Source: Acidobacteriota bacterium (GTDB taxonomy: Bacteria; Acidobacteriota; UBA4820; DSQY01). From it: a stretch of DNA of 40,713 nt. The stretch is taken from assembly GCA_021833665.1 (NCBI GenBank), contig JAKBES010000006.1, positions 1 to 40,713 of the forward strand, read 5' to 3'. Below, one piece after another: positions 501-29,217 of this stretch. The translations under genes and the position numbers were made by a program. The notes below the pieces were generated by a model. It did not search any database, was not told the origin of the DNA, and worked only from the letters and a program-made list of their open reading frames with translations. Positions within the stretch are counted from its first letter, which is position 1; every line of letters starts with the position of its first letter.

Positions 501-535
501 CTTTTCACTCCCTGCTCCCTGCTCCCTGCTCCCTG
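501..535. repeat. Heptamer tandem array (CTCCCTG x4, preceded by CTTTTCA)
   Basis: Four perfect copies of CTCCCTG run from 508 to 535, immediately preceded in the same 7-bp register by one CTTTTCA (501-507), the unit that forms the array at 13861-13916. The array sits just past the 3' end of the minus-strand DnaC-like gene, between its stop and the barrel terminator. A purine-rich stretch lies to its left (about 464-485), so it may be the right arm of a paired element like those at 4931-5091 and 29119-29217. No coding function is supported. Confidence 0.75.
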
Positions 536-555
536 CCTACTTATCACCGTCCTCC

Positions 556-1257
556 TCACCGCTTCCTGTGGTCGGGCCCGTCCATGAGAACGGTCTGGCA
601 CATCTCCATGAGCCGGGAGCGCGTGCGCGTGCCGATGCGGTCATCGAGGGCCGTTTCGCCCGGTCCGGGCGAATCCAGGTAGTTGCTCGTACACAGGGTA
701 GGGCGCTGCTCGTTGTAGCGCTGGCTCACGAGATAGTGAAGGGTGTCCTGGGCCCACGGGGTGGCCACGCAGCCCAGTTCATCGATGAGCAGGAGGGGCG
801 TTTCCACCAGGGGATTCAGGATGTCGTACTCCGTTTCTTCGCTGCCCGTCCTGCCGTAGGTCGCCCTGATCTCTCGATAGAGTCCGTTCAGGTCCACGAA
901 CAGGGCCGGCATTCCCTTGCGAACCACCACTTCCTGGAGGATGGACACGGCCAGGTGCGTCTTGCCCACGCCGCAGGGTCCCAGAAAGAGGAGGCCATTG
1001 GCCCCCTCGGGAAGGACGGGATAGTCCTCCGCGAACCGCCGGGACAGCATGAGGGCCTCTTCCTGAGTGGGGTGGGCCGGTCTGAAGGTGTCGAAGGTGT
1101 AGCCCTTGCGATACCGGAGCGGGATGGAGGCTTGCTCCACGAGGCGGGTGGCGCGGTCCGGAATGCGGCAAGAGCAGGGGCGGGCCACCAGGGCGCCCCC
1201 GTGCTCTTCAACCAAGTACCCCGAGCCTCCGCACGTTGGACAGTTCGTGGGGCTCAT
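556..1257 (-). CDS. DnaC/IstB-like AAA+ ATPase with N-terminal zinc-binding motif
   Basis: The 233-residue protein begins with a Cys cluster (C6, C9, C28, C30) that looks like a small zinc site. An AAA+ core follows: Walker A GPCGVGKT (93-100), Walker B LLLIDE (155-160), sensor I TSN (190-192) and an Arg-rich RTRSRLMEM segment (211-219), as in DnaC, DnaI and IstB helicase-loader ATPases. In replication these load the DnaB helicase onto DNA; in IS21 elements IstB helps the transposase. No IS21 istA or inverted repeat is seen nearby, so a chromosomal helicase-loader role is more likely. It is monocistronic here, convergent with the barrel gene and divergent from the small exported protein at 1390. 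Confidence 0.8.
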   Translation of the reverse strand: MSPTNCPTCGGSGYLVEEHGGALVARPCSCRIPDRATRLVEQASIPLRYRKGYTFDTFRPAHPTQEEALMLSRRFAEDYPVLPEGANGLLFLGPCGVGKTHLAVSILQEVVVRKGMPALFVDLNGLYREIRATYGRTGSEETEYDILNPLVETPLLLIDELGCVATPWAQDTLHYLVSQRYNEQRPTLCTSNYLDSPGPGETALDDRIGTRTRSRLMEMCQTVLMDGPDHRKR

Positions 1258-1389
1258 TCATCCTCCGCCAGACTCTGGCCCATCCACGGCGGCACCTGCC
1301 TGACCCTCGCCGCCCATTTCCTTCCGCAGGATACCACAGGGGTGATGGGCTGGCAGGCCATGGTATAGTTCATCAGGAGGTCTCCAGCC

Positions 1390-1797
1390 ATGGCCCGTTT
1401 GATGGCCCTTGGAACCGCTCTCCTCCTGCTGTTGCTGTGCCTCACGGGAGCCGCGAGCACCGGGGAGACCGTCCTCACGGCCGCCTGCGGTCCTGGTTGC
1501 GACCCGGCGCCCACCGGATTCACGGTGCCTACCAGTCAGGCCGCCTCTTTTTTCAAGGTCGTGACCCTTCTCCCGGGGCGCCCATGCGCCGGCAAAGAGC
1601 GGGATCCCGTGAAAGGCTTCAGCATCCGGCGTGGCGGGCAGACGGTGCTGGTGTACTACTGGACACCCGGGGGCGTCGTCTCCGACCCTGTCCCGCTGGA
1701 CGATCTGGAACTGGGACCCGGCACGTATCAGGTCTACGCCGCTCCCGCGTCAGGGGCCAGCGTGACGTTGTCGTTCAGGATCACCCCGAGGGGCTGA
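1390..1797 (+). CDS. Small exported protein of unknown function
   Basis: The 135-residue product starts with a classical Sec signal: Arg near the start, a long Leu/Ala run (about residues 7-20) and a likely cleavage after the AAS region. The mature part is about 110 residues with three or four Cys (two in AACGPGC, one in RPCAG) that could form disulfides, and it is beta-rich with Gly/Pro turns. An AGGAGG Shine-Dalgarno lies 9 nt before the ATG, which fixes the start. An extended -10-like TGGTATAGT occurs just upstream but would place transcription initiation on the ribosome site, so it is not called. I do not recognise the family. It converges on the sigma54 activator gene, with only 25 bp between the stops. 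Confidence 0.6.
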   Translation: MARLMALGTALLLLLLCLTGAASTGETVLTAACGPGCDPAPTGFTVPTSQAASFFKVVTLLPGRPCAGKERDPVKGFSIRRGGQTVLVYYWTPGGVVSDPVPLDDLELGPGTYQVYAAPASGASVTLSFRITPRG

Positions 1798-1822
1798 TGC
1801 GCCCCTCCGCCCGCGCGAGGCC

Positions 1823-3181
1823 TCACGTGGTGGCGGCTGTCCGCTTTTGAACCCCGTACTCCTTCATCTTCCGCCAAAGGGTGACCCGGCTTATGCCGAG
1901 GTGCTGGGCCGTGCGGCTGATCTTCCACTCATTGGCATCCAGGGTCTTGAGGATGAGATCGCGCTCAAGGGTCTCCAAGGGGGAGTGGATCTGATAGAGG
2001 GGCATGGGAGACTCTTCGGGCTGCGCGGAGCTGGGCAGCGGCAGGTCGCGCGTCCGGATAATGCCTTCCTGGCATCGGATGGCCGCGTGCTCCACCAGGT
2101 TTTCCAACTCGCGGATGTTGCCGGGGAACCGGTAGTCCATGAGACGCGCCAGCGCATCGGCCTCGATGCGCTCCACTTTCTTGGCAGGCATCTTGGCGGA
2201 GATCTTCTTGATGAAGTGGTCCACGAGCAGCGGAACGTCATCACGCCGCTCGCGGAGGGGCGGCAGGGTGATGCGGAAGACGTTGAGCCGGTAGTAGAGG
2301 TCCTGCCTGAAGCTCCCCTCCTCCAGCGCCGTAACCAAGTCCCTGTTGGTTGCGGCCACGACCCGTACGTCCACTTTGGTGCTCCTGGCCGATCCCACCC
2401 GCTCCAGCTCGCCCTCCTGAAGGACTCGCAGGAGCTTCACTTGCGTGGCCGGAGGTATTTCCGCGATCTCGTCCAGAAAGATGGTACCGCCGTGGGCGAG
2501 CTCGAAACGGCCCATCTTATCGGCGATGGCTCCGGTGAAGGCTCCCCTCACGTGCCCGAAAAGCTCGCTCTCCAGGACGCCCTCGTTCAGCGCCGCGCAG
2601 TTGACTTTGACGAAGGCCCGGCTCCTTCGCGTGGAGTTGAAATGGATGGCGTTGGCCACCATTTCCTTGCCCGTCCCGCTCTCGCCGGTGATCAGAACCG
2701 TAGAGTCCGTCTCCGCGACCAGCTTGATCAGGTCGAAGACCTCCTGCATGGTCTTGTTGTGGCCGATGATGCTGGAGAAGGAGAACCGCTCCTGGGCCGA
2801 CTCCTGCAGGCGCGTGATCTGGGAAATGTCATTGAAGACTTCCACCCCGCCCACGATGTGGCCCGAGTCGTCCCGCAAGAGGGTCACGCTGGTGAGGCAA
2901 TTGAGGAGCTGGCCGTCCTTGGTGCGGTACCACATGGGGACGCCCGACATGTCCTGGCCGTTTTGCATGGCCCTGGTCATGGGACACGAATACTCACACT
3001 CGGATGAGCGGGTGATCTGCTTGCAGCACGCCTCGGCCACTTCCCCTTCGGAATACCTCAGGAGGCGCCGGGCCGTTTCGTTGATGAAGACAATTTTCCG
3101 CTCAAGATTCGTGACGATGACCCCATCACTCACGCGGTCCAGGACTTTTCGGGTATTGGGGTCACGAATCAGTTCGTTCAA
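1823..3181 (-). CDS. PAS-domain sigma54-dependent transcriptional activator with Cys-bearing sensor
   Basis: This is a 452-residue bacterial enhancer-binding protein. Residues about 13-125 form a PAS domain; AAA+ follows with Walker A GESGTGKE (166-173), the sigma54-contacting GAFTGA loop (213-218) and Walker B TIFLDE; a Fis-type helix-turn-helix closes the protein (about 420-445). There is no receiver domain, so sensing should be by the PAS domain itself. That domain holds C52, C53, C62 and C66 in a spacing suggestive of a redox or Fe-S site (inference). The TTG start overlaps the end of the ferredoxin gene by 20 bp, has GAGG upstream, and makes this the last gene of an operon with a cysteine desulfurase. 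It may regulate its own operon or distant sigma54 promoters. Confidence 0.9.
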   Translation of the reverse strand: MNELIRDPNTRKVLDRVSDGVIVTNLERKIVFINETARRLLRYSEGEVAEACCKQITRSSECEYSCPMTRAMQNGQDMSGVPMWYRTKDGQLLNCLTSVTLLRDDSGHIVGGVEVFNDISQITRLQESAQERFSFSSIIGHNKTMQEVFDLIKLVAETDSTVLITGESGTGKEMVANAIHFNSTRRSRAFVKVNCAALNEGVLESELFGHVRGAFTGAIADKMGRFELAHGGTIFLDEIAEIPPATQVKLLRVLQEGELERVGSARSTKVDVRVVAATNRDLVTALEEGSFRQDLYYRLNVFRITLPPLRERRDDVPLLVDHFIKKISAKMPAKKVERIEADALARLMDYRFPGNIRELENLVEHAAIRCQEGIIRTRDLPLPSSAQPEESPMPLYQIHSPLETLERDLILKTLDANEWKISRTAQHLGISRVTLWRKMKEYGVQKRTAATT

Positions 3182-3452
3182 GGTCCCGCCTCACTTCGGC
3201 TATGATCTCCCCGCCATCGGCCCCGCCGCACCGCTTGAAGGCGACGCCCCCCTTGCATACCAAAACGTTCGGCCCTTCACCGCACATGCCAAGGCAGGAG
3301 ACGTACGATACCTTCACGCGTTTGGCGGGCAGTTCCCTCGCCGCCTGCTTGAGGGCGACGCGGATCTTCTCGGGGTTCCCCTTCTGGCTGCACGAATCTC
3401 CCTTGCAGACCAGAACCCATACACGGTCTAAAGCTTCAACCTTTTCGCTCAT
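3162..3452 (-). CDS. Thioredoxin-like [2Fe-2S] ferredoxin
   Basis: This small protein of about 96 residues has the cysteine pattern of thioredoxin-fold [2Fe-2S] ferredoxins (NuoE C-terminal domain, Azotobacter FeFd): a CKGDSC motif near the N-terminus and SCLGMCGEGPN later, four ligands in a Cx4C...Cx3C arrangement. Two further Cys (in LVCKG and KRCGG) are present. It should carry electrons in the cytoplasm. ATG at 3452 is chosen because AGAGG lies about 8 nt upstream and the codon follows the desulfurase stop by 4 nt; an upstream in-frame GTG at 3473 would overlap that gene. Its 3' end overlaps the sigma54 activator start, implying translational coupling. Its place between a sulfur donor enzyme and a PAS regulator suggests a role in Fe-S supply or signalling (inference). 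Confidence 0.85.
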   Translation of the reverse strand: MSEKVEALDRVWVLVCKGDSCSQKGNPEKIRVALKQAARELPAKRVKVSYVSCLGMCGEGPNVLVCKGGVAFKRCGGADGGEIIAEVRRDLERTDS

Positions 3453-3456
3453 GGCG

Positions 3457-4635
3457 TCAAGCCTCTGGCCCACCTTTCAGCCGCTTCAGGATGGCGGGAA
3501 GAAGGGAGAGGAGCGTCTCCGTGTCCTGCCGTTCGCTTTCCCGGCCGAGGCTGACGCGAAGAACCGATCCCATGAGGCCCTGATCCACGTCCATGGCTTT
3601 CAGAACCCTGGGACCCGCCGTACCCCCGCTGTGGCAGGCGGACCCGGTGGAAATGGCCACTCCCGCTTCATCCAAGGCCAAAACGAGGGCGGGACCCGAG
3701 AACCCCGGAAGACTGAAAAAGGAGGTATTGGGCAACCGCGGGGCCTCCCCGCCATGCACCACGGCGCCGTGGTCCTTCCTGAGCCGGCGCTCCATGTCAT
3801 CCCTGAGCTGGGCCAATCGCCCCCCCTGATCAAGAGCTTTGACAGCCAGTTCGCAGGCCGCACCAAAGGCCACGGCCAAAGGAACGGCCTCGGTGGATGA
3901 CCGCCGCCCCTCTTCCTGGCCTCCGCCCACGAGGAGGGGAACCAGCGGAGCCCCATTCCGAGCCGCCAGAGCACCGATTCCCTTGGGCCCGTAAAGTTTA
4001 TGCGCGGCCACGGCCACGTAATGGGGCCGCGCCGTCCTCCAAGGCGAGGAGACTTTGCCCAGGGCCTGAACGGCATCCGTGTGAAAAAGGGCGCCGTAGT
4101 GGCGGCACAGGCGTCCCACGTCCTCCAAGGGCTGGAGGACCCCCGATTCGTTGTGAGCGGCCATGACGCTCACGAGGGCCACGTCTTCGCCCATCTGGGC
4201 CTCGAAACGGGCCAAGTCGAGAACCCCTTGCGCCGTGACAGGGATCTCCTCGACCTGGAACCCTTTCCTCTCCATGGAGTCTCGCTGATCGAAGACGGCC
4301 GGGTGCTCGATGGCGCTCAGGAGAACCCGGGTGCGCCCTGGATCCGCCCCGTGGAGGGCCGATGCGACGGCCAGGTGGTCGGCCTCCGTGGCCGACCCCG
4401 TGAAGATCACCTCGCCGGGTTCGCAGCCCACCAGGGCGGCCACGCGCTCCCGGGCGGTGAAGAGGGCGGCCATGGAGTCCCGCCCTTCGCGGTAAAGGCT
4501 GGAGGCGTTGCCGAAAAGTTCGCGCTGGGCAGATTCCAGGGCTTGAGCCACGGGTCCCGCCAAGGGCGTCGTGGCGTTGAAGTCCAGGTAGATGCGCCCC
4601 GAAGGCAGTTTCACGGCAGTCTCGAAACGGGCCAA
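3457..4635 (-). CDS. Class I cysteine desulfurase (NifS/IscS-like)
   Basis: A 392-residue PLP enzyme that removes sulfur from cysteine as a protein persulfide for Fe-S clusters or other thio-cofactors. Family marks are visible: YLDFNATTP near the N-terminus, the SAIEHPA histidine that stacks on PLP, HTDAVQALGK, the PLP lysine in AAHKLYGPKG, and the catalytic-Cys loop STGSACHSG. The length is normal for NifS/IscS. The start is a TTG that directly follows the stop of the ferritin-like gene (TGATTG), so translation is probably coupled; a GTG at 4614 is an alternative without a better ribosome site. No IscU/NifU scaffold is in the window. Because selB lies upstream, a selenium-delivery role is possible but unsupported. 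Confidence 0.9.
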   Translation of the reverse strand: MARFETAVKLPSGRIYLDFNATTPLAGPVAQALESAQRELFGNASSLYREGRDSMAALFTARERVAALVGCEPGEVIFTGSATEADHLAVASALHGADPGRTRVLLSAIEHPAVFDQRDSMERKGFQVEEIPVTAQGVLDLARFEAQMGEDVALVSVMAAHNESGVLQPLEDVGRLCRHYGALFHTDAVQALGKVSSPWRTARPHYVAVAAHKLYGPKGIGALAARNGAPLVPLLVGGGQEEGRRSSTEAVPLAVAFGAACELAVKALDQGGRLAQLRDDMERRLRKDHGAVVHGGEAPRLPNTSFFSLPGFSGPALVLALDEAGVAISTGSACHSGGTAGPRVLKAMDVDQGLMGSVLRVSLGRESERQDTETLLSLLPAILKRLKGGPEA

Positions 4636-4845
4636 TCAGTTGTCCGCGTAGAAAAAGCGGTCGAGCTGTTCCTCGATGTGGCGAACGTGCCGCTCTTCCT
4701 CCTCGGCCATCTCCAGGAGCGTCTGCTTGGTGGCGGGGTGCTGAGCCACGGCGGCGGCCTCCTTGTAGAAAGCGTGAGCCTTTTTCTCGCGCTCCAGCGC
4801 CATGCGAAGGATGTCGATAGGGGGGGTATTGGGATCGATGGGCAT
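4636..4845 (-). CDS. Small ferritin-like/rubrerythrin-type di-iron helical protein
   Basis: The 69-residue protein is almost entirely helical with two Glu/His-rich segments, EREKKAHAFYKEAA and AEEEERHVRHIEE. These match the ExxH-type iron ligands of rubrerythrin N-terminal helices. It is shorter than classical rubrerythrins (about 140 or more residues) and lacks a rubredoxin domain, so it could act as a dimer binding iron or as a peroxide/iron sensor (inference). The ATG at 4845 has GAGGAG 8 nt upstream. The frame stays open further upstream only because the repeat array at 4931-5028 has no stops on this strand, so longer versions are not credible. It is first in the operon with the desulfurase, ferredoxin and sigma54 activator. 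Confidence 0.75.
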   Translation of the reverse strand: MPIDPNTPPIDILRMALEREKKAHAFYKEAAAVAQHPATKQTLLEMAEEEERHVRHIEEQLDRFFYADN

Positions 4846-4930
4846 AGGCCAACTCCTCGAATGAACGCCGATTGTAGCAGGTCGGCCCACGAGGGGGAAG
4901 AGTGCGAGGCGGACAGGGGTGTTGGTTAAG

Positions 4931-5028
<98 letters not shown>

Positions 5029-5048
5029 GCCTGGAAGCTCGTGGGGGT

Positions 5049-5091
5049 TCACTCCTCACTCCCCCACTCCTCACTTTTCACTTTTCACATA
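5049..5091. repeat. Heptamer array, TCACTCC/TCACTTT units (right arm)
   Basis: Six degenerate units (TCACTCC, TCACTCC, a slipped unit with one extra base, TCACTTT, TCACTTT, TCACATA) follow the GTTGAG array after a spacer of about 20 bp. It is pyrimidine-rich on the + strand, opposite in bias to the left arm, and ends 7 bp from the selB stop codon. Confidence 0.75.
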
Positions 5092-5098
5092 TTTGCCC

Positions 5099-6985: not shown

Positions 6986-7020
6986 GAGGGCGGGCCTTCG
7001 ACGAAGAATCGAGAGGCGGG

Positions 7021-7044
7021 AATGAGGGAATGAGGAAATGAGGT
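7021..7044. repeat. Octamer array AATGAGG(G/A/T) x3 (left arm)
   Basis: Three 8-bp units AATGAGGG, AATGAGGA and AATGAGGT lie between selB and rsmD. The arm is purine-rich on the + strand and is paired with the pyrimidine-rich octamer array at 7063-7110. A short GTGGC/GCCAC stem separates the two arms. Confidence 0.7.
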
Positions 7045-7061
7045 GGCCCCGCCACGTTCCG

Positions 7062-7652
7062 TCATCTCCGCATCTCCCCATTTCCACATCCCCGCCTCTC
7101 CTCATCCGTCCGTTCAAACACCGTGAGTCCCGTATCTCCGTATCTGTAGCTCCGTCTCAGCTTCATCCCCTCGGGACAGGCCGGGAGGGCCTTCGCGCCG
7201 TGCTCTACCACCAGAAGGCACCCCGCGGCCAAGATTCCGCTTGCACCCATGGCCGCCAGCAGCGAGGGCCAGCGGCCGTCCGCGTAAGGCGGGTCGCAAA
7301 AGAGGATGTCCAGCGGCGGGCCCTCCTTCTCCAGCAATGCCACGGCCTGCGCCGCGTCCACCGGAAGGATGCGGGCCCGCGGGCCGGCCCTCAAAGCCTC
7401 GATGTTCCTCCGAAGGCATTCCAGCGCCCGGCGGCGGCGTTCCACGAAGAGGCAACGGGTGGCGCCCCGGCTCAAAGCCTCCAGTCCCACCGCGCCCGTC
7501 CCGGCGTAGAGGTCGCCGAAAGCCGCGCCGGCCACCCGCGCTCCGAGGATGTCGAAAAGGGCTTCACGCACCTTCTCGGACGTGGGCCTTGTGGCCTCAC
7601 CCTCGGGAGCGAAGAGCTTGCGGCCCCTGTGTTCTCCCCCTACGATGCGCAT
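7062..7652 (-). CDS. rsmD: 16S rRNA (guanine966-N2)-methyltransferase RsmD
   Basis: A SAM-dependent methyltransferase of 196 residues. It begins MRIVGGEHRGRKL, followed by RPTSEKVREALFDIL, the SAM-binding segment DLYAGTGAVGLEALSRGA and the catalytic DPPY motif, all characteristic of RsmD/YhhF, which methylates G966 of 16S rRNA in the small subunit. The ATG at 7652 is the family start and has GGAG-rich sequence upstream; longer in-frame extensions enter the ssb promoter region. The last roughly 15 residues (Glu/Arg/Gly-rich) and the stop are encoded by an 8-bp repeat array, so the native C-terminus appears to have been replaced or extended by repeat sequence. rsmD is divergent from ssb. Confidence 0.93.
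   Translation of the reverse strand: MRIVGGEHRGRKLFAPEGEATRPTSEKVREALFDILGARVAGAAFGDLYAGTGAVGLEALSRGATRCLFVERRRRALECLRRNIEALRAGPRARILPVDAAQAVALLEKEGPPLDILFCDPPYADGRWPSLLAAMGASGILAAGCLLVVEHGAKALPACPEGMKLRRSYRYGDTGLTVFERTDEERRGCGNGEMRR
7063..7110. repeat. Octamer array CATCTCC-type x6 (right arm), inside the rsmD 3' end
   Basis: Six 8-bp units (CATCTCCG, CATCTCCC, CATTTCCA, CATCCCCG, CCTCTCCT, CATCCGTC) run in register. The array overlaps the end of rsmD, encodes its last residues and provides its stop. A weaker echo of period 8 (CGTATCTC, CGTATCTG) occurs at about 7133-7148. Confidence 0.7.
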
Positions 7653-7676
7653 GCTCCCGGTCTCCTGAAAATCTCG

Positions 7677-7706: not shown

Positions 7707-7743
7707 AGGGGCACCCAAGGACGGGTAGAAAGGAGTGTGGCTC

Positions 7744-8154: not shown

Positions 8155-8166
8155 GGCGCGAGGATT

Positions 8167-8213: not shown

Positions 8214-8237
8214 TCCCTTAGCTCCTTCTTGAACCCC

Positions 8238-13653: not shown

Positions 13654-13682
13654 AGTATACTATGGATGGCGGGAATTGCGAA
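13654..13682 (-). promoter_or_regulatory. Probable sigma70 promoter of the radical SAM/DUF2344-rng operon
   Basis: Read on the minus strand: -35 TTCGCA (13682-13677), a 17-bp spacer and -10 TATACT (13659-13654). The start would be near 13647, leaving about 15 nt before the ATG with GGAGG inside it. The -35 lies inside the heptamer array at 13671-13705. Confidence 0.5.
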
Positions 13683-13705
13683 TTGGGAAGGGCGAAGGGC
13701 GAAGG
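13671..13705. repeat. Heptamer array GCGAAGG-type x5 (left arm)
   Basis: Five 7-bp units in register: GGGAATT, GCGAATT, GGGAAGG, GCGAAGG, GCGAAGG. It is purine-rich on the + strand and lies upstream of the radical SAM gene. It pairs in layout with the pyrimidine-rich array at 13861-13916 at the other end of the same intergenic gap. Confidence 0.7.
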
Positions 13706-13860: not shown

Positions 13861-13916
13861 CTTTTCATTTTTCACTATTTACTTTTCACTTTTCACTTTT
13901 CACTTTTCACCCTTTA
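13861..13916. repeat. Heptamer array CTTTTCA x5 plus variants (right arm)
   Basis: Eight units in strict 7-bp register: CTTTTCA, TTTTTCA, CTATTTA, four CTTTTCA, CCCTTTA. It overlaps the 3' end of the RAYT-like gene, encodes its last five or so residues and supplies the stop. The same unit occurs once at 501-507, and a shifted form (TCACTTT) in 5049-5091. Confidence 0.92.
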
Positions 13917-14763
13917 CACTTTCCTCCTGACGCCGCTCCGCCTTCCGTACGATGCGGCTAATCGTAGCGGGATGGAGCCCCAAGGCCCCTCCCAGCTCGG
14001 CGAGGGTGTAGCCAAACCGGAGGTAAGCCTCCGCGACACGGCGGTCCCGTTGGGCGTGGTCATCGGCGAGCGCGCGAGGCAGAAATCGCGAGAGAGGCGG
14101 CCGCCCCGGGGGGGCCTTGGAAGGGGGCCTCATGGCCGGCTGGCGGGGTTCCAACTGTGCGCCAAACGCCTCCGATCCCACAAAGTGCACCCGGACTACC
14201 GAGGGCAGTGCCTTCCCCGCCCCCGCCTTCACAAATTTCTCGTAGCGGTTCCTCGCCTTCTTGGGCCTCCCGCCGAACTGGGCCAGGAGCCAGGAGGGAT
14301 TGACCACGTGGGCCTGATCGTCGGCCCCTGCCGTGGCCCCGAAACTGCTCCAGCGCCACTTTCCCGCCTTCTTGACGTGCCCTGCGCGGACGGGTGCCAG
14401 GACGACCTCCCTGCACACGTCCACGAGGGGCGTCCCCTTTTCCACCGGCCAGGAGCCAAATCGTCCTTTGAATACTGGCCCTTTCCGGCCCCGCCGGCGG
14501 TTGTAACCCTGCGTAAACTCCCCGTTCAGGTCGCGCATGCCCCTGGACAGGTTGGCCTCGGGCGTCTCCACGACCAGGTCGTACCCCGCTTCCAAAACGC
14601 AGTAGGCGTGGCAGATCCACCTGTGGCGCGTCACCACGTGGCCCAGTATCTTCATGAAGCGGTCCCTGTCGGCCGCGTCGAGGGCACGGCCCGTCCCATC
14701 GATGCATCGGGTCTCAACCCAATAGACGGCCCCTGGCGATTCCAGTCTTGCGCGTCTTGCCAT
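13900..14763 (-). CDS. RAYT-family (REP-associated, Y1 transposase-like) protein lacking catalytic residues
   Basis: The 287-residue protein has the full RAYT/Y1 (IS200-like) scaffold: PGAVYWV at the N-terminus, TPEANLSRGMRDLNGEFTQ, YNRRRGRKGPVFKGRF, VVLAPVRAG and KWRWSSFGATAG. A C-terminal helix-turn-helix of DnaA/Trp-repressor type (about 240-275) follows. The catalytic positions are replaced. Where the family has NHxH (the HUH metal site) this protein has AGYD (G60, D62), and where the catalytic Tyr sits in a VEKDxYLL-like segment it has VEKGTPLV (P112). The usual HVTxRG is WVETRC. The frame is intact, so this looks domesticated rather than decaying. The ATG at 14763 has a G-rich site upstream. 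The C-terminus is encoded by a heptamer array. DNA binding without cleavage is the likely activity (inference). Confidence 0.85.
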   Translation of the reverse strand: MARRARLESPGAVYWVETRCIDGTGRALDAADRDRFMKILGHVVTRHRWICHAYCVLEAGYDLVVETPEANLSRGMRDLNGEFTQGYNRRRGRKGPVFKGRFGSWPVEKGTPLVDVCREVVLAPVRAGHVKKAGKWRWSSFGATAGADDQAHVVNPSWLLAQFGGRPKKARNRYEKFVKAGAGKALPSVVRVHFVGSEAFGAQLEPRQPAMRPPSKAPPGRPPLSRFLPRALADDHAQRDRRVAEAYLRFGYTLAELGGALGLHPATISRIVRKAERRQEESVKGEK

Positions 14764-14804
14764 GGCGCCCCCCGAGATGATGCCTGCAATGTACCGCAAA
14801 CCCA

Positions 14805-14829
14805 TTGACAGGAACAAGCACGTTGACAG
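14805..14829. promoter_or_regulatory. Direct repeat TTGACAG in the divergent promoter region
   Basis: TTGACAG occurs twice (14805-14811 and 14823-14829), 18 bp apart, on nearly the same helix face. The first could be a -35 for + strand transcription with a GAATAT -10-like hexamer 18 bp on; alternatively the pair is an operator, perhaps for the HTH of the RAYT-like protein encoded just to the left. Confidence 0.35.
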
Positions 14830-14940
14830 AATATGCTGGAGGGCCGTAAGGAGCAAGCGCAGGGTCACCTGCTTGCCCTTCATCCATTACAACTAGAGGC
14901 GAGGTGCACGTGAGGCAGGATAAGAGACACCGGCGGCGCG

Positions 14941-17859: not shown

Positions 17860-17884
17860 GCCGAGCCTGACGATCCACGAAAAG

Positions 17885-17911
17885 GGAGGGGCGCTCGCCC
17901 CTCCTTTTTTC
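17885..17911 (+). terminator. Rho-independent terminator of the TonB receptor gene
   Basis: An 8-bp stem GGAGGGGC / GCCCCTCC with a GCTC loop is followed by six T, 26 bp after the receptor stop codon. An A run precedes the stem. It separates the receptor from the convergent UPF0173 gene. Confidence 0.9.
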
Positions 17912-17987
17912 GTTCATGCAGTGCGCGGAATCAAGCGGAAGAAGGCTGGACTCACCCCTCGGCTTCAAGCCATCGGGAGCAGCTCTC

Positions 17988-18014
17988 GTCCCCTGTCCCC
18001 TGTCCCCTGTCCCT
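17988..18014. repeat. Heptamer array GTCCCCT, almost 4 units
   Basis: Three perfect GTCCCCT units and a fourth shortened one (GTCCCT) end 4 bp before the stop codon of the minus-strand UPF0173 gene. It is pyrimidine-rich on the + strand. A purine-rich stretch (about 17926-17946) lies to its left, the same polarity as the other paired elements. Confidence 0.8.
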
Positions 18015-18017
18015 GCC

Positions 18018-18695
18018 CTACACCGTGACCGTTTCCCCGAATCCCACGACCCGGCCCTTCACGCCTCGGGCCGTGAGCCGGCGCAGGAACTCGCGGGGAT
18101 CGGACTCAATCACGGGGAAGGTGCCGTAGTGGATGGGCATGGCCTCGCGGGTCTGGCAGAGGACCGCCGCTTCCACGGCATCGTCGATGCCCATGGTGAA
18201 ATTGTCCCCGCTGGGAAGGAGGGCCAGGTCGATGGGGTTCAGGCGCCCGTAGAGGGCCATATCCGAGTGGATGCCCGTATCGCCGGCGAAGTAGACGCAC
18301 TTCCCGCCCATCCAGATGAGCAGGCCCGCGGGGTTTCCGCCGTAGGTTCCGTCCGGCAGTGAGGATCCGTGCAAGGCGGGCGTCAGTTTGACCCTGCCCC
18401 ACGGAAACGTGTGGGCCCCCCCGATGTGCATGCCGTGGGCCTTGGCTCCTTGGCCCTGCATCCAGTTGGCGATCTCGAAATTGGTGACGACCTCACAGTC
18501 GTTGCTCTTGGCGATCTCCACCGCGTCTCCCACGTGGTCCCCGTGTCCGTGGCTCACCAGGACCGCTTCGACCTTCACGTCGGAGGGCTTGATCTTGGCG
18601 TGCATGTTGCCGTTGATGAAGGGGTCCACGATGACCCGGTGTCCCTCCGCCTCTAACTCGAAGCAGGAATGGCCGTGATAGGTCAGCTTCAACAT
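18018..18695 (-). CDS. UPF0173-family MBL-fold metal-dependent hydrolase
   Basis: A 225-residue protein starting MLKLTYHGHSCFELE. Metal ligands are visible in VSHGHGDHVGDA (H49, H51, D53, H54), the later TPALHGS, FAGDTGI and PIHYGTFP segments, as in the UPF0173/YtkL group of metallo-beta-lactamase-fold hydrolases. The substrate of this group is not established. Length is normal. GGAGG lies 8 nt before the ATG. It lies 91 bp downstream of lipM on the same strand, with a GC-rich 8-bp stem-loop (18732-18767) in that gap that lacks a T-tract. Its 3' end touches a GTCCCCT heptamer array. Confidence 0.92.
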   Translation of the reverse strand: MLKLTYHGHSCFELEAEGHRVIVDPFINGNMHAKIKPSDVKVEAVLVSHGHGDHVGDAVEIAKSNDCEVVTNFEIANWMQGQGAKAHGMHIGGAHTFPWGRVKLTPALHGSSLPDGTYGGNPAGLLIWMGGKCVYFAGDTGIHSDMALYGRLNPIDLALLPSGDNFTMGIDDAVEAAVLCQTREAMPIHYGTFPVIESDPREFLRRLTARGVKGRVVGFGETVTV

Positions 18696-23774: not shown

Positions 23775-24166
23775 GACTCTACCTCGACTCTCGTACTCGA
23801 ACTCCGTACGACGAAGATTTTCAAGTTGTTGTCCAGGGGATCGGGCGGGAACAGAAAGAATCCGCTCGATCCCTCCGCCAGGTTCAACACCTTGCCCCGG
23901 AGAACCTCCCCGTCGGGAAAGGTGACCCTCACCACCTTCCCGGCCTTGGGTGAGTTTTCCGTGAACTCCGGGTTGGGGCGGTATCCGGGATTGCCCTCGT
24001 GTTCGCGAACGAAGAAAATGGCCTTCACGTCCTGCAAGTCCACCGTCTTGAGGTTGCCCACCGTGTCCAACACCTTGAGTTTTCGGTAAGCGGCGGAGAA
24101 GTGGGAGTAAATAGAGCATTTCTCCATGGCGCCGTCGCGCAACCTGAGAACGATGTTCTGGCGCAT
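23771..24166 (-). CDS. Small conserved protein, probably DUF6982-like
   Basis: A 131-residue soluble protein with two similar beta-rich halves: VLRLRDGAMEKC at the start and VRVTFPDGEVLRGKV later, each a short-barrel-like strand pair, plus VDLQDVKAIFFVREHEGNP and SGFFLFPPDPLDNNLKIFVVR. I recall such KAIFFVR proteins in Acidobacteriota and deltaproteobacterial relatives, I think catalogued as DUF6982, but this is from memory. The ATG at 24166 has GGAGGGGG upstream. It lies 20 bp after the GspE-like gene and overlaps the HSP100 start by four bases, so the three genes are co-translated. It may be an adaptor or ligand-binding module for its neighbours (inference). Confidence 0.75.
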   Translation of the reverse strand: MRQNIVLRLRDGAMEKCSIYSHFSAAYRKLKVLDTVGNLKTVDLQDVKAIFFVREHEGNPGYRPNPEFTENSPKAGKVVRVTFPDGEVLRGKVLNLAEGSSGFFLFPPDPLDNNLKIFVVRSSSTRVEVES

Positions 24167-24186
24167 GGCCTTACCCCCTCCGCCCG

Positions 24187-25410
24187 CTACAGCGAATTCA
24201 TCACGTCTTCGAGGGAACAAAATCCCGAAAGCGCCTTAAGGGCCCCGTCCACTTTCAGCGACGTAAGGCCTTCGCGCTGGGCCCTCTGCCGCAGCGCTTG
24301 AGCGGACTCCTTGGCGACGATCATCTTGTTGAGTTCCTCGCTGGGGAGATAGAGTTCGAAAATGGCCACGCTTCCCGCGTAGCCGGTCCCGCCGCAGGCG
24401 CCGCACCCCTTGGCCCTGTAAAACCGGCCGTCCGCGGGCAGCCTGAGGCCGATCTCCTTTTGCAGGTCCTCGGTCACCGGATAGGGCTCCCGGCAGTTCA
24501 CGCACAGCCGCCGGATGAGGCGCTGGTTGAGGACCGCCGCCAGGGAAGCGGCCAGGAGGAAAGGCGCCACGCCCATGTCCAGCAGATTCTGGATGGCGTT
24601 CAGCGTGTCGTTGGCGGTCATCCTGGCGAAGACGAGGCGCTTGGCGAAGGCCCCCTGGATGGTGGCGCGGGCATCGGCATCGTTGGTGATGTCGCCGATG
24701 TACGCCACGTCCGGCTCCTGCTTCATCAGGGCCTGGATGCCCTCGGCGAAGGAGTACTCCGCCCGCTCGTCGGGCTTGCCCTGGATCATCCCCGGCACTT
24801 CGTACTTCACGATGGGATCGAAGGACATGGCCAGCATGTCCGGCCGGATCACCTCCATGATGGAGCCGTACACCGTCGTGCGCTTGCCCGAGCCCGGAGG
24901 TCCCGTGATGAGGTAGAGCCCCGAACTTTTCCCCAGGGCCTTCCTGTAGGCCGTGAGCAGGGCCGCGCTCATGCCCATCTCGCTGATCCGCATGGTGGCG
25001 CTCTGCTTGTACTGGAGCTTCACCACGACCGATTCGCCGTAGAGGCTGGGCATGACGTGGACGTAGAGCTCGATCTTCCGGTCTCCGAACTCCTTGCGCA
25101 GAAAACCCGTCTGGGGGATGCGGTTCTTGGTGATGTCCATGCCCGACTGGACCTTGAGCCGGTTCAAGACGTTGGTGCGCACCTTTTCGGGGAAGTCCCT
25201 GACCTGCACCATGGAGCCCTTGACGCGCATGCGAACATTGAGGATCTCTTGCAGCGGCTCGAAGTGGATATCGGTCGCGCCCGCCTCCACCCCATCCTGC
25301 AACACCTTGTCCACGTCCTGGATGACCGTCTTATCGTCGGCCCCCCCCGTCGACTGCGGGGGAGCCCCCGGCTGCGGACGCCTCAACGCGTCGAACTGGG
25401 GCTTGTCCAT
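24187..25410 (-). CDS. GspE/PilB-like secretion ATPase homologue with degenerate nucleotide motifs
   Basis: The 407-residue protein keeps the layout of type II/IV secretion ATPases: DGVEAGATDIHFEP, RIPQTGF, LYLITGPPGSGKRTTVYGSI, and the tetracysteine zinc motif (C303, C306, C336, C339). The active site is eroded. Walker A ends GKR (R177 in place of Ser/Thr); the Asp box EDPVE is FDPIV; Walker B GEIRD is GDITN; the His box LTGHLVLSTLHTND is FAKRLVFARMTAND, losing both His. ATP hydrolysis is doubtful. The N1 domain for GspL/PilM docking is absent. No pilus or T2SS genes are adjacent. The start has AGGAGG 7 nt upstream. It is first in the operon with the small conserved protein and the TPR-HSP100. 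Confidence 0.85.
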   Translation of the reverse strand: MDKPQFDALRRPQPGAPPQSTGGADDKTVIQDVDKVLQDGVEAGATDIHFEPLQEILNVRMRVKGSMVQVRDFPEKVRTNVLNRLKVQSGMDITKNRIPQTGFLRKEFGDRKIELYVHVMPSLYGESVVVKLQYKQSATMRISEMGMSAALLTAYRKALGKSSGLYLITGPPGSGKRTTVYGSIMEVIRPDMLAMSFDPIVKYEVPGMIQGKPDERAEYSFAEGIQALMKQEPDVAYIGDITNDADARATIQGAFAKRLVFARMTANDTLNAIQNLLDMGVAPFLLAASLAAVLNQRLIRRLCVNCREPYPVTEDLQKEIGLRLPADGRFYRAKGCGACGGTGYAGSVAIFELYLPSEELNKMIVAKESAQALRQRAQREGLTSLKVDGALKALSGFCSLEDVMNSL

Positions 25411-25428
25411 GGGCGCCTCCTAGGGGCG

Positions 25429-25457
25429 AATGTACCACCGGCCAAGGGGGTGAGCAA
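25429..25457 (-). promoter_or_regulatory. Weak promoter candidate for the GspE-like/HSP100 operon
   Basis: On the minus strand TTGCTC (25457-25452), a 17-bp spacer and TACATT (25434-25429) lie just before the AGGAGG of the GspE-like gene. Match to consensus is 3/6 and 4/6, so this is tentative. Confidence 0.3.
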
Positions 25458-25719
25458 GGATACCGCCCCTGCCGTGGGCGGATCCCGATGCTGGGAGCCC
25501 GTTGCGAAGCGAGGAAGCTCATGCGGTGGACACATCATGCGAGGCGAAATTGAGACCTCCGGCGAGGCGTTGCCTTCTCCTATTTGGGGGGCGCGATTCG
25601 GGAGGTCCCTGTATGAGGCGGCCAGCCGAGCCATGAACCAGCTCACCCATCTCCTTCCTAGTCCAGAGGCCATCACCCACCGGCGAACCGGGAGGCCTTC
25701 CTTTTCGTAAGGAGATCCC

Positions 25720-25740
25720 TTTCGCCCAGGCGTCGCGAAA
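25720..25740. promoter_or_regulatory. Inverted repeat upstream of the NmrA-like gene
   Basis: TTTCGC (25720-25725) and GCGAAA (25735-25740) form a 6-bp inverted repeat with a 9-bp centre, ending 17 bp before the ATG and just before the GGAGG site. Position and symmetry suit a repressor operator; a leader hairpin is the alternative. Confidence 0.35.
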
Positions 25741-25757
25741 TGCGACAGGAGGACACC

Positions 25758-26681
25758 ATGACCACGAAGTCCAAGGTTTTCGCCGTCACCGGCGCTACGG
25801 GAAACACGGGCAGCAAGCTCACGGAGCTTCTTTTGGAGCAGGGCAAAGAGGTCAGGGCCATCGCGCGGGGACGCGAACGGCTGCAGGCGCTGACCAAGAA
25901 GGGCGCCGTCGCCCACGCGGGCTCCCTGGAGGACGTCCACTTCCTCGCCAACGCGCTCAAAGGAGCCGACGGCGTCTTTATCATACTCCCCCCCAACTAC
26001 ACGGCGGATCACGTGCAGAAGTACCACCAGTCCCTCTCGGACGCCGCGGTTGAGGCCATCCGGCAGGCGGAAGTCCCGCGCGTGGTGGCTCTGAGCAGCT
26101 TCGGCGCCCACCTCCCTGCGGGCGCGGGGCCCATCTCAGGGCTGCACTACCTGGAGGAGCGGCTCGGATCCCTCAAGGACGTGGACGTCCTTTGCCTCAG
26201 GGCCGGATTCTTCATGGAGAACTTTCTGCAAAACATCGAGATGATCAAGCACCGCGGCATCAACGGCAGCCCTCTGGCCCCCGATCGTGCCGAACCCATG
26301 ATCGCCACCCGCGACATTTCCGCCGCTGCGGCCCAGCACCTGACGGAAGGGGACTTCTCGGGGAAGGAGGTCCGCTATCTCTTGGGCGCCCGAGACGTGA
26401 CCTTCAAGGAAGCCACGCGCGTGCTGGGCGAAGCCATCGGCAGGCCCGACCTCAAATACGTCCAATTCTCCTACGAGGACACCCGCAAGTCTCTCCTGGG
26501 GGCCGGCCTTTCCAAGAGCGTGGCCGAAAGCTTCGTGGAGATGTACAAGGCCTTGAACGAAGGCCGCGTCAAGCCCACGGAGGCCCGCTCTCCGAAGAAC
26601 ACGACGCCCACGAGCCTGGAGGAGTGGTCCCGCACCTTCACCATGGCGTACGGGGCTCATGCGCGGGCCAAGTCCGCCTAA
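25758..26681 (+). CDS. NmrA-like NAD(P)-binding protein / NAD(P)H-dependent reductase
   Basis: A 307-residue atypical short-chain dehydrogenase. The nucleotide-binding motif is VTGATGNTGSKL near the N-terminus, followed by AIARGRERL (NADP-preferring Arg) and a central VVALSSFGAHLP. LCLRAGFFMENFLQNI is typical of NmrA/QorB/azoreductase-like proteins, which sense or reduce with NAD(P)H. Substrate unknown. The ATG at 25758 has GGAGG 7 nt upstream; an ATG 18 bp earlier lacks a site. A possible operator (25720-25740) precedes it, and a terminator-like hairpin follows 45 bp after the stop. It is monocistronic and divergent from the GspE-like operon. Confidence 0.85.
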   Translation: MTTKSKVFAVTGATGNTGSKLTELLLEQGKEVRAIARGRERLQALTKKGAVAHAGSLEDVHFLANALKGADGVFIILPPNYTADHVQKYHQSLSDAAVEAIRQAEVPRVVALSSFGAHLPAGAGPISGLHYLEERLGSLKDVDVLCLRAGFFMENFLQNIEMIKHRGINGSPLAPDRAEPMIATRDISAAAAQHLTEGDFSGKEVRYLLGARDVTFKEATRVLGEAIGRPDLKYVQFSYEDTRKSLLGAGLSKSVAESFVEMYKALNEGRVKPTEARSPKNTTPTSLEEWSRTFTMAYGAHARAKSA

Positions 26682-26726
26682 ACGGGCCGAGACTTGCGCC
26701 GGGATAAATGGCTCTCGGCGAGGGCA

Positions 26727-26760
26727 CAGGAGGCGGGCGCTGGGCCCGCCTCCTGCTTCT
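26727..26760 (+). terminator. Probable terminator of the NmrA-like gene
   Basis: A perfect 12-bp stem (CAGGAGGCGGGC / GCCCGCCTCCTG) with a 5-nt loop is followed by CTTCTT, a weak T-tract. The long GC stem and location between convergent genes support termination. Confidence 0.7.
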
Positions 26761-26794
26761 TACCTGTTCGGATCGTTTGCGCCGAGGCCCCAGG

Positions 26795-28114
26795 TCACTT
26801 CATGATCGGAGTGAGCCTGTCGTTGGGAGCCTTGCGTAGAACGTTGTAGGCGAGATTCGTGAACCGGTGGTGGGAGTTCCGGGCGACGCGGGAGAAAATT
26901 GAGCTCCAGGCGTAGGCGGCCTGGCGGGCCTCCACCCATCCCCGGTACAGGCGCTCCGGGGTCATGCGTTTCGGGCGGAACACGACGTCGCTGTGGTTGT
27001 ACCGCTCCCAATCCTTGTGCAACATGCGGCCCTCCGCCTGGAATTGAGCGTGGAGCGCCGTCCCGGGGTAAGGGGTGAGAATGTGGAAGGTGGCCCCGGA
27101 CGGCGCGCAGTCTTCCACGAACCGCAGGGCCTCCTCGAAGCATTCCTCCCCCTGGTCATCAAATCCGAAAATGAGGGAGACTTCTACGAGGATTCCCGCA
27201 TCCTGAACCCGTTTCACTAGGTCCCTCTGGGGTTCCTGCCCACTCAGTTTAGTCAGGTGCGACGCGGCTCCTCCAAGGGCCTCCACGCCGGCGAAAAGGG
27301 CGAGACAGCCCGAGCGGGCCACCAGTTGGAGAAGGTCCTTGTCCTGTGCGAAACGGAGGGTTGTTTGGGAGGCCCACTGCAGGTCCAGACGTCCCATCCC
27401 TTTGAGGAACGGTGCCGCCCGCCCGGGATCGCCCAGGAGATTGTCGTCCAGGAAGATGGCGAGGCGTTCTCTGAAGGTGGCCAGCTCACCGAGCACATCC
27501 CCGGCGGCCCTGTAGCGGAAGCGACGCCCAAAGTAAGGCGTCACGGTGCAGAACGGGCAATCGTAGGGGCACCCCCGGCTCGCTTGGAGCGCCTGGGTGG
27601 TGACGTAACGCTTGCCTCTCAGGATGTCCCTCCGGGCCCAGGGACCCTGGAGCAGGTCGCCCGAGGGTTCAGGCGCCACGTAGGCGGAGGCCATGCGGCC
27701 CGCGAGGACGTCGTCCAGCACCCGGCCCCAGACCGGCTCCGCTTCTCCTACCACGACGCAGTCCGCGTGAAGGGCCGCTTCTTGGGGCAACACCGTGGGA
27801 TGGATGCCCCCCAGCACGACGGGCACGCCCTCGCCCCGAAACCGCGCCGCGAGTTCGTAGGCCCGGGGGGCCTGTTCGGTCATGCACGTGATGCCCACCA
27901 GATCGAACCCCGGCCCGGAGGGCATCGCCTCCTCCTGCACCTCGTCCACCATCACCACCTCCCAGGGTTCCGGGGTGCAGGCGGCCACGTGCATCAGGGA
28001 CAGGGGTGGGAGCTGGAAGCGCCTGACCCAGCCGAGGCGCTGACGGTTCGGATAGACCAGAAGCAGCCTTGGAGCGCCCTTTTTGTGGGGAAGGCGGCTG
28101 GCACGGCGATCCAT
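26795..28114 (-). CDS. B12-binding domain / radical SAM protein
   Basis: A 439-residue enzyme with an N-terminal cobalamin-binding-like region (LLLVYPN, then VMVDEVQEE and VVLGGIHPTVLP) and a radical SAM core with C182, C186 and C189 in RGCPYDCPFC. GFDDQGEECFEEAL is the usual glycine-rich follow-on. It belongs to the large class of cobalamin-dependent radical SAM proteins (methyltransferases, hopanoid or lipid modifiers); the C-terminal segment YAWSSIFSRVARN resembles those acting on lipids or hopanoids, but the substrate cannot be assigned. The ATG at 28114 is preceded by a hairpin holding the Shine-Dalgarno. It lies downstream of ymdB on the same strand, 160 bp away. Confidence 0.87.
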   Translation of the reverse strand: MDRRASRLPHKKGAPRLLLVYPNRQRLGWVRRFQLPPLSLMHVAACTPEPWEVVMVDEVQEEAMPSGPGFDLVGITCMTEQAPRAYELAARFRGEGVPVVLGGIHPTVLPQEAALHADCVVVGEAEPVWGRVLDDVLAGRMASAYVAPEPSGDLLQGPWARRDILRGKRYVTTQALQASRGCPYDCPFCTVTPYFGRRFRYRAAGDVLGELATFRERLAIFLDDNLLGDPGRAAPFLKGMGRLDLQWASQTTLRFAQDKDLLQLVARSGCLALFAGVEALGGAASHLTKLSGQEPQRDLVKRVQDAGILVEVSLIFGFDDQGEECFEEALRFVEDCAPSGATFHILTPYPGTALHAQFQAEGRMLHKDWERYNHSDVVFRPKRMTPERLYRGWVEARQAAYAWSSIFSRVARNSHHRFTNLAYNVLRKAPNDRLTPIMK

Positions 28115-28115
28115 C

Positions 28116-28132
28116 GGAGGGTTACCCCCTCC
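28116..28132 (-). promoter_or_regulatory. Hairpin over the ribosome site of the radical SAM gene
   Basis: On the minus strand GGAGGG (28132-28127), a 5-nt loop and CCCTCC (28121-28116) form a perfect 6-bp stem that ends one base before the ATG. The left strand is the only good Shine-Dalgarno, so folding would hide it. Confidence 0.45.
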
Positions 28133-28274
28133 GCTTCGGCCGGGACTCCGCCTGGGACCAAGCGGCGTCGAGAGCCCGATCAAGGACTGCAAAGAGCGAA
28201 GCTTGGGACTCCCGGCTCATCTCCAGGGTTGCCTCCGATTTTGCACCTAAGCGTTGGGTAGCCCGTCCCCCGCG

Positions 28275-29057
28275 CTACACCTCTCGGAGATAGACGCCTT
28301 CGATTCCGGTGCAGTGCCCGGTAGCGTCGTCGATCTCCGCGTAGAGGCCCGCGAGGCGGGGGCTGCCCTTGGCCACGTTGAGGATGGTGGGCATGCCCGT
28401 GATCAGGCGCTTGAGGGAATCCTCCGGCGCCATGCCGATGACGCTGTCGTAGGGGCCCGTCATGCCCGCGTCGGTCAGGTAGCCCGTGCCTTTCGGAAGG
28501 ATTTCCGCGTCGGCCGTGGGCACGTGGGTGTGGGTTCCCACGACGAGGCTCGCGCGGCCGTCCAGATAGTACCCCATGCCGCGCTTTTCGCTGGTGGCCT
28601 CCGCGTGCATGTCCACGAGGATGCACCGCTCACCCGGGGGCAGTTCCGAGAGGATACGGTCGGCGGCCCGAAAGGGGCAATCCACGGGCGGCATGAGGAT
28701 CTTGCCCTGCAAATTGATCACCCACAGGGCCCGGCCGTCGTCCAGTCCGTGCCGGTGCACGCCCTTTCCTGGAACACCAGGCGCGTAGTTGGCGGGCCTC
28801 AGGAGGGGCAGCCCGCCGTCCACGAAGGCCAGCGCTTCCTTCTTGTCCCAGATGTGATTTCCCGTCGTTACGACGTCGATGCCCAGCCCGAGCAGCTCGT
28901 CCAGCACTTTTCGAGTAAGGCCAAAGCCTCCCGCGGCGTTCTCGGCGTTGGCCACGACCACGTCGAGCCCGTACCGCTCCCTCAGGCCGGGAAGGAGGTG
29001 CGCCACGGCGTGGCGCCCGGGCCGTCCCACGATGTCGCCGATGAAGAGGATCCTCAT
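28275..29057 (-). CDS. ymdB: YmdB-family metallophosphoesterase (2',3'-cyclic nucleotide phosphodiesterase)
   Basis: A 260-residue protein starting MRILFIGDIVGRPGRHA. The dinuclear metal ligands are seen in GDIVG (D8), NAENAAGG, TTGNHIWDK, DMHAEATSEK and GTHTHVPTAD, the full YmdB/TIGR00282 signature. In Bacillus YmdB hydrolyses 2',3'-cyclic nucleotides and influences biofilm and motility; it is usually next to RNase Y. Here it lies directly downstream of rny on the same strand, separated by an octamer repeat pair, which fits that known neighbourhood and suggests RNA-turnover linkage. Confidence 0.95.
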   Translation of the reverse strand: MRILFIGDIVGRPGRHAVAHLLPGLRERYGLDVVVANAENAAGGFGLTRKVLDELLGLGIDVVTTGNHIWDKKEALAFVDGGLPLLRPANYAPGVPGKGVHRHGLDDGRALWVINLQGKILMPPVDCPFRAADRILSELPPGERCILVDMHAEATSEKRGMGYYLDGRASLVVGTHTHVPTADAEILPKGTGYLTDAGMTGPYDSVIGMAPEDSLKRLITGMPTILNVAKGSPRLAGLYAEIDDATGHCTGIEGVYLREV

Positions 29058-29118
29058 CTTCTAGGTACACTCCGAAGCCAGTGGCGCCGTTGTGACGCTT
29101 CCGCCAATCTCGTTGATC

Positions 29119-29150
29119 GTGAGTAGGTGATGAGGAGATGAGGAGAGTAG
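29119..29150. repeat. Octamer array GTGAGTAG/GAGATGAG x4 (left arm)
   Basis: Four 8-bp units in register: GTGAGTAG, GTGATGAG, GAGATGAG, GAGAGTAG. It is purine-rich on the + strand and lies between ymdB and rny. Its first unit is the exact reverse complement of the unit in the right arm. Confidence 0.8.
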
Positions 29151-29184
29151 GAAGGACACATCGCTGATGCTCTCCACATCTTCC

Positions 29185-29217
29185 CTACTCACCTACTCAC
29201 CAAACTTTCCTACTCAC
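29185..29217. repeat. Octamer array CTACTCAC (right arm)
   Basis: Two adjacent perfect CTACTCAC units (29185-29200), a degenerate CAAACTTT unit, then another CTACTCAC (29210-29217). It is the reverse complement of GTGAGTAG in the left arm, 34 bp away, so the gap can fold into a hairpin. It ends 24 bp from the rny stop. Confidence 0.8.

Follow-up and report, generated by a model that had tools for sequence, protein, structure and literature searches.

Contig JAKBES010000006.1 of an Acidobacteriota genome (GenBank assembly GCA_021833665.1), a stretch of 40,713 nucleotides called the window below, has four intergenic gaps in which a purine-rich (R) tandem array of 7- or 8-bp units faces a pyrimidine-rich (Y) array. 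An earlier reading of the window's letters, the original prediction, had proposed these arrays as a new repeat class. We now assign a probability of roughly 0.6 to the reading that each pair of facing arrays marks the ends of a small insertion element, in most cases devoid of an open reading frame (ORF), of the kind represented by the intervening sequences (IVSs) of 23S rRNA genes and their S23p genes. S23p is the family PF05635, "23S rRNA intervening sequence protein", a four-helix bundle whose solved structure, Xanthomonas campestris XCC0516 (PDB 2GSC), was among the matches.

S23p genes between matched arrays

The first case came from a gap in the sister genome (G002, 94% identical; G numbers denote related genomes and L numbers loci), where an S23p-like ORF is flanked by two matched arms. 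The window's own genome encodes four PF05635 genes, and the arrays flanking each of the four agree in period and correspond in word: GATGAGGA at L278 (8/8, matching at 7 of 8 bases), AGTGAGG at L279 (7/7), GTGAGTAG at L280 (8/8) and GTTGAGA at L281 (7/7). Versions of these four words make up the window arms at 4925, 5049, 7018 and 29121. In related genomes, arrays stood on both sides of 22 of 34 S23p loci, with equal period in 20, and the arms were perfectly complementary in 82%, compared with 5% when arms were re-paired between loci.

The pooled set comprised 84 S23p genes with full flanks, in which arrays were sought within 300 bp. An array was present on at least one side of 75 genes and on both sides of 49; in the latter group the period was equal at 48 loci (38 at 7/7, 9 at 8/8 and 1 at 9/9), and the arm words were perfect complements at 40. 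Among 414 ordinary genes of the window's genome, used as a control, nine had arrays on both sides and none matched in period and word (Fisher p ~1e-35, a value that includes related copies and so overstates independence). Genomes selected solely by a GTTGAGA array encoded PF05635 above the curated cut-off in 33 of 36 cases and control genomes in 0 of 14, with the 36 not phylum-matched and some of the selecting arrays possibly flanking S23p genes themselves. PF05635 exceeded the cut-off in 23 of 40 relatives; it was found in 10/10 of those rich in one purine-word pattern versus 13/30 of the others (p=0.002). This correlation lacks a correction for phylogeny, the pattern-rich class was drawn up after the fact, and reversed-pattern counts are included.

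Complete plasmids, mostly cyanobacterial, carried 22 S23p genes, 20 with at least one array and 16 with both. Matched period and perfectly complementary words were found at 15 of these 16, as in Nostoc edaphicum (AGTAGGG/CCCTACT) and Nostoc sp. C052 (AGGGAAC/GTTCCCT). Since finished plasmids show matched arms, assembly error in metagenome-assembled genomes (MAGs) is not their cause. No phage S23p was found among 50,697 records. Three S23p elements (L368, L372 and L381) sit within CRISPR-Cas operons of cyanobacterial plasmids, in the orders cas6/S23p/cas4 and cas10/S23p/cmr3. At L368:1060-1680, on a plasmid, the arms around the S23p gene (AAAAGCT and AAAAGCC) run in direct orientation, an exception to the inversion.

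The same arrangement was found within rRNA. On an Azospirillum lipoferum plasmid, a 23S rRNA gene is interrupted by an S23p ORF (Rfam LSU_rRNA_bacteria covers the whole locus). At an offset of 7, the arms of this ORF match themselves at 18/29 and 19/27 positions (all other offsets give less than half) and form an uninterrupted 28-bp duplex of -55 kcal/mol. For the Coxiella IVS, Warrier et al. 2016 (PMC4990558) describe tandem heptamers (GACAGAT) right upstream of the S23p ORF, whose copies vary among strains, as well as terminal inverted repeats that are cleaved by RNase III; the origin and function of the IVS are called unclear there. The elements described here share with rRNA IVSs bearing an S23p ORF (Coxiella and Leptospira; PMC4990558) an ORF between stem-forming inverted repeats, a sporadic distribution and, in the Coxiella heptamers and the Azospirillum arms, a 7-bp unit. 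Unlike rRNA IVSs, they lie between protein genes, have multi-copy tandem arms of varied words with periods of 7, 8 or 9, and are mostly ORF-less. A PF05635 ORF between inverted repeats is a property of the four copies in the genome and not of the ORF-less window pairs; as every array of the window is flanked by protein genes and none is in rRNA, they are IVS-like at most.

An element of this kind consists of a 5' purine-rich array of 7- or 8-mers, a loop, and a 3' pyrimidine-rich array of equal period. The loop of an intact copy holds one ORF, S23p, a relative of bAvd, the accessory protein of diversity-generating retroelements (DGRs); most copies, among which the four window pairs would count, have a short spacer only. 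The elements occupy transcribed gaps right after stop codons, and with intact arms being inverted copies of one word, any transcript crossing them would be expected to form a long stem. RNase III cuts this stem in rRNA IVSs, and the insert leaves the RNA; by analogy, processing of mRNA copies by RNase III may render the element harmless between operon genes. S23p probably serves the spread of its own element, presumably by mobilizing it. Internal deletion would produce ORF-less pairs; slippage and exchange would thereafter alter the number and the word of the units in their arms, often keeping the period. Shared words, architecture, position and one decay series suggest that the window pairs are descendants or ORF-less members of the S23p family. 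A wider proposal is more tentative, and we place it at somewhat under even odds: that these minimal mobile elements form one pan-bacterial family, the rRNA IVSs being its best-known members, with inverted 7-, 8- or 9-mer ends whose word is renewed at each site and with S23p mobilizing many ORF-less copies. If so, a large share of the heptamer repeats that are so far unaccounted for in bacterial genomes would be the ends and remains of S23p elements.

The kinship with bAvd raises a different scheme, in which S23p would act as bAvd does with a reverse transcriptase, RNA would be copied into DNA, and the arrays would be built by repeated priming on the units. The match of S23p to bAvd is weak (E 2e-6, below the Pfam cut-off); arrays at both ends would suit repeat-primed copying, and S23p co-occurs with the reverse transcriptase family RVT_1 (11/13 versus 12/27, p=0.02, phylogenetically uncorrected). 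RVT_1 is nevertheless absent from 12 of the 23 S23p-bearing relatives, and G035, rated 100% complete, has nine S23p copies and no RVT_1. We judge such retro-elements highly improbable. The 12 relatives without RVT_1 led us to reject both a reverse transcriptase as a necessary partner in the same genome and an assignment to DGRs.

Order, period and complementarity of facing arrays

We surveyed 687 kb of the window's own genome in 81 stretches, counting arrays that scored at least 14. Period 7 gave 44 arrays, period 8 gave 8 and period 14 gave 26, the last being a restatement of period 7; no other period between 4 and 15 exceeded four arrays, and first-order Markov sequence yielded none at this score. 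The arrays are real and non-random. In a looser set, 78 of 85 lay outside called genes. A second sample comprised 119 loci from many phyla, fetched with one GTTGAGA pattern; it contained 269 arrays of period 7, many of them the query word itself, and at most 19 of any other period. Dozens of words besides GTTGAGA occur in these loci.

Within 250 bp, R preceded Y 49 times and Y preceded R once in this lineage; the corresponding counts in the other phyla were 56 and 4. Around GTTGAGA anchors in other phyla, an opposite-type neighbor stood on the expected side in 46 of 46 cases, with period 7 in 43, where elements with the anchor word in both arms were counted from each side. The original prediction described the same plus-strand polarity at every pair. 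The order, R left and Y right, holds, but R-then-Y is its own reverse complement; the regularity is thus an order rule, and a strand bias is rejected. Arms shared one period more often than chance allows, as had been anticipated: 39 of 49 pairs in this lineage (26.7 expected, p=0.0002, permutation) and 47 of 56 in other phyla (40.9 expected, p=0.001, permutation). The recurrent class of period-matched facing arms is real and pan-bacterial.

These regularities bear on the idea that the arrays are ordinary simple sequence repeats (SSRs) that arise by slippage, favor 7- to 8-bp units and survive in gaps, with S23p elements inserting into the loops of existing pairs. Among the long SSRs of bacteria, heptamers are the most frequent, and a polymerase-contact explanation has been offered for them (Mrazek 2007, as cited in PMC4692102 and PMC4679880), and both the free variation of copy number between sister species and the long-range decoupling of word and S23p lineage agree with slippage. 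We regard this explanation as unlikely, since it predicts neither the fixed R-then-Y order (49:1 and 56:4) nor equal periods and complementary words around S23p, nor such arms on an rRNA IVS, nor homology between two copies that begins at the arm (described below). Two further ideas were set aside. Stop codons in three frames do not account for periods of 7 and 8, as GGGATTT and GAGCGGG contain no stop. A head-to-head, telomere-like fusion agrees with the order, but there are many different words and no template.

The arms had also been described as inverted. This is true of the two 8/8 pairs, which fold strongly (7018-7043 with 7058-7106, z -4.75; 29121-29156 with 29184-29217, z -6.04), and not of the two 7/7 pairs. 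In other phyla, ORF-less arms were more complementary than re-paired arms (p=0.0004). A GGG tract is absent from GTTGAGA, GTGAAAA, AGTGAGG, GAGACGC and GTGAGTAG and present in GGGATTT and GAGCGGG; the arrays do not have the GGG in each unit that characterizes G-quadruplex heptamer repeats.

Turnover, decay and placement at gene ends

How readily the arrays change is illustrated by the gap that follows the SelB stop codon. The window's genome has GTTGAGA/TCACTCC arms (7/7), and G002 has the same words in other copy numbers (five copies in the R arm, and a Y arm expanded as TCACTCT). At the same gap, G001 has GTGCTGA/TCAGCAC-type arms (7/7), G003 has 8-mer arms, and G006 (L245) has the 9-mer arms CACCAAGAC and CTTGGTGCC; the facing-array architecture exists with 9-mers too. 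The pair between ymdB and rny is missing from the short gap that G005 and G006 have there. Comparison of copy numbers, which the original prediction had proposed among strains, shows that they change freely between sister species. At another locus compared between sister species (L033:2666-3128 versus L258), one arm differs in word and period (TCAACTC, 7, against CATCCCGG, 8), and the other arm, GGGATTT, is retained.

By gene positions from a custom gene caller, which are approximate, arrays on the stop-codon side of genes lie a median of 6 bp from the stop codon and those on the start-codon side ~50-60 bp from the start, in the window's genome and in G002 (p=4e-7 and 7e-10, respectively). Of the gaps of at least 60 bp, arrays occupied 37 of the 170 between co-directional genes, 7 of the 27 convergent ones and 5 of the 44 divergent ones. 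The expected enrichment at gene 3' ends is borne out; that the arrays adjoin the 3' ends of minus-strand genes is true locally, but it is one case of a general stop-codon rule.

Such placement could also mark a selected gene-end device, whether a bidirectional terminator, an mRNA 3'-end stabilizer or a quadruplex element useful at stop codons. R-then-Y resembles a bidirectional hairpin, strong folding is seen in two window pairs, divergent gaps are under-used relative to convergent ones, and Rehm 2015 (PMC4692102) gives a like placement. However, half of the window pairs do not fold, a T-tract is missing, true terminators are separately present in two of the gaps, and most words lack the G-tracts required for quadruplexes. 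The same gaps in relatives have no array or one of another word and period, and this presence, absence and full change of word and period argues against a conserved gene-end device, which we judge quite improbable. The earlier suggestion of a transcript-end structure fits in position, beside stop codons, and fails on the same variation at orthologous gaps.

One series from intact to ORF-less was found. At the site of L281, where the window's genome has arms and an S23p gene, G002 has the same arms with the ORF deleted bar its 3' end, and G003 and G006 have a gap of ~50 bp and no arrays; on this comparison, the gene-free pair of G002 is a decayed S23p element. No target-site duplication was seen between L281 and the empty G003 site, a comparison limited by their 78% identity. 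In a Bacteroidaceae MAG, two S23p copies share an arm word and 80% DNA identity that starts at the left arm, in unrelated surroundings. In four S23p pairs, dN/dS is 0.05-0.15, which points to purifying selection on S23p. An orthology between L032:106-425 and L262:3125-3827 was dropped as a tandem-paralog artifact; the true partner of L262:3175 is L280.

Several observations weigh against reading the facing arrays as arms of S23p-type elements. Window pairs 1 and 3 (both 7/7) have a period in common and not a word, and they show no folding above chance. ORF-less arms in the window's genome are no more complementary than re-paired arms (p=0.19; p=0.16 in G002), and a few S23p loci (L368 and L328) have arms in direct orientation. 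The ORF-less pairs, by extrapolation a hundred or so per genome, far outnumber the ~4 S23p genes, and a profile hidden Markov model search for S23p remnants in ORF-less spacers gave no signal above shuffled or reversed controls, its only match being the intact ORF of L262 and all four window spacers being negative; the G002 remnant at the L281 site is the sole exception among ORF-less pairs. Neither a transposase nor a target-site duplication nor an insertion endpoint was established for the elements, and the two Bacteroidaceae copies could have arisen by some other kind of duplication long ago. One word is common to S23p proteins just 24-48% identical, so that over long spans the arm word is not inherited along with the protein. 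The orthologous S23p pair L262/L278, of low divergence, has a dN/dS of 1.25, and the S23p ORF at L280:1501-1857 has an in-frame TAG where the sister-species copy at L262:3175 is intact; L280 appears from this to be a decaying copy, and some copies do decay.

Known repeat classes and the arrays of the window

Facing pairs of this kind had been thought undescribed. In Rehm et al. 2015 (PMC4692102), however, 70 and 75 "convergent" heptamer pairs are reported for two Xanthomonas genomes, and the G-rich heptamer class of Xanthomonas and Nostoc is placed at stop codons as here. Those repeats (GGGAATC and GGGGA(C/T)T) resemble ours in being intergenic heptamers with convergent pairs and length variation among relatives, in having the G-rich strand just past a stop codon in sense or before an ORF in antisense, and in that their host Xanthomonas campestris also encodes an S23p protein (XCC0516). 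They were interpreted there as quadruplexes of one consensus, with no link to a mobile element or S23p, whereas the arrays here use many words, mostly without G-tracts, and include 8-mers. The short tandemly repeated repetitive (STRR) heptamers of cyanobacteria and the TAACTGA repeats (MacGregor 2015, PMC4679880) likewise are intergenic tandem heptamers with the same word in distant phyla; neither paired arms nor a link to S23p is described there. Tandem 7-bp units in intergenic positions at many loci, the hallmarks of heptameric SSRs and STRRs, are found in the window's genome.

Miniature inverted-repeat transposable elements (MITEs) and bacterial interspersed mosaic elements (BIMEs) built of repetitive extragenic palindromes (REPs) are also small, inverted, ORF-less, intergenic and variable among strains. 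The elements here differ in having neither a constant terminal sequence nor a REP palindrome, their inverted repeat being a tandem array of variable word. As unit words vary from element to element, and even at a single site from one species to the next, the constant terminal inverted sequence of MITEs is lacking and that assignment was rejected. No common palindrome was apparent by eye in the pairs, and RAYT was not searched for; the proposed likeness to BIMEs survives for a small, mobile-looking, intergenic element but not for a conserved REP palindrome.

The paired arrangement itself is thus not new, and the link to S23p appears to be. In the open-licence literature we found no paper that joins S23p and heptamers beyond the Coxiella remark, which does not in itself prove novelty. 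The link joins two questions that are decades old, namely why so many unrelated bacteria have tandem heptamers in their gaps and where 23S IVSs come from and what their protein does; with matched arms around S23p in many phyla, on plasmids and in one rRNA gene, both become testable together. Annotation would change, with arrays becoming element ends rather than random microsatellites, and the large family of "four helix bundle protein" entries would gain a role.

Within the window, Tandem Repeats Finder (TRF) recovered every array of the original prediction to within a few bases, which upholds facing arrays in all four gaps (7/7, 8/8, 7/7 and 8/8) and both single arrays, of Y type, near 508 and 17988. 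Unit words recur among elements as claimed, from a small dictionary that is reused; CTTTTCA at 501 is a single copy and no array. The R arm of pair 1 (4925..5028, period 7, GTTGAGA, 14.9 copies) lies between a small gene (4636-4845) and SelB, and its word is identical to that of the L281 arms. Its Y arm (5049..5088, period 7, TCACTCC then TCACTTT) is 11 bp from the SelB stop codon, and TCACTCC is the arm word at L279. Pair 2 has an R arm at 7018..7043 (period 8, GGGAATGA), akin to the GATGAGGA arms of L278, and a Y arm at 7058..7106 (period 8, CATCTCCG, 73% matches).

The R arm of pair 3 (13673..13705, period 7, GAAGGGC / GCGAATTG) is weak; TRF called 13687-13705 with just 2.7 perfect copies, and in G002 the arm is kept but degenerate. 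Its Y arm (13861..13910, period 7, CTTTTCA) overlaps the stop codon of 13900-14883, a gene on the minus strand, and an exact 21-mer of it was found on four further contigs of the genome. Pair 4 comprises an R arm at 29121..29156 (period 8, GTGAGTAG and GAGATGAG) between ymdB and rny, the former word being the arm word of L280 and L262, and a Y arm at 29184..29217 (period 8, CCTACTCA) that follows closely on the RNase Y stop codon in the sense direction. All four spacers are short and contain no ORF.

A distance of 20 bp separates the single Y array at 508..536 (period 7, CTCCCTG, 100% matches) from the stop codon of 556-1215, a minus-strand gene; the array has no R partner and is present in G002 and absent in G001. 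For the second, at 17988..18013 (period 7, GTCCCCT), the distance to the stop codon of 18018-18695, also on the minus strand, is 5 bp, and the copy number is lower in G002. Ordinary bidirectional intrinsic terminators lie at 420-455 (GGGCGGGCC...GGCCCGCCC plus a T-run), to the left of the array at 508..536, and at 17880-17915 (GGAGGGGCG...CGCCCCTCC plus a T-run); the sister genome has both of them conserved, and neither is part of an array. Elsewhere in the window, positions 2210-2760, inside the gene 1823-3181, match many places in each relative at ~65-71% identity, which identifies this segment, by sequence similarity, as part of a large paralogous domain family of the lineage.

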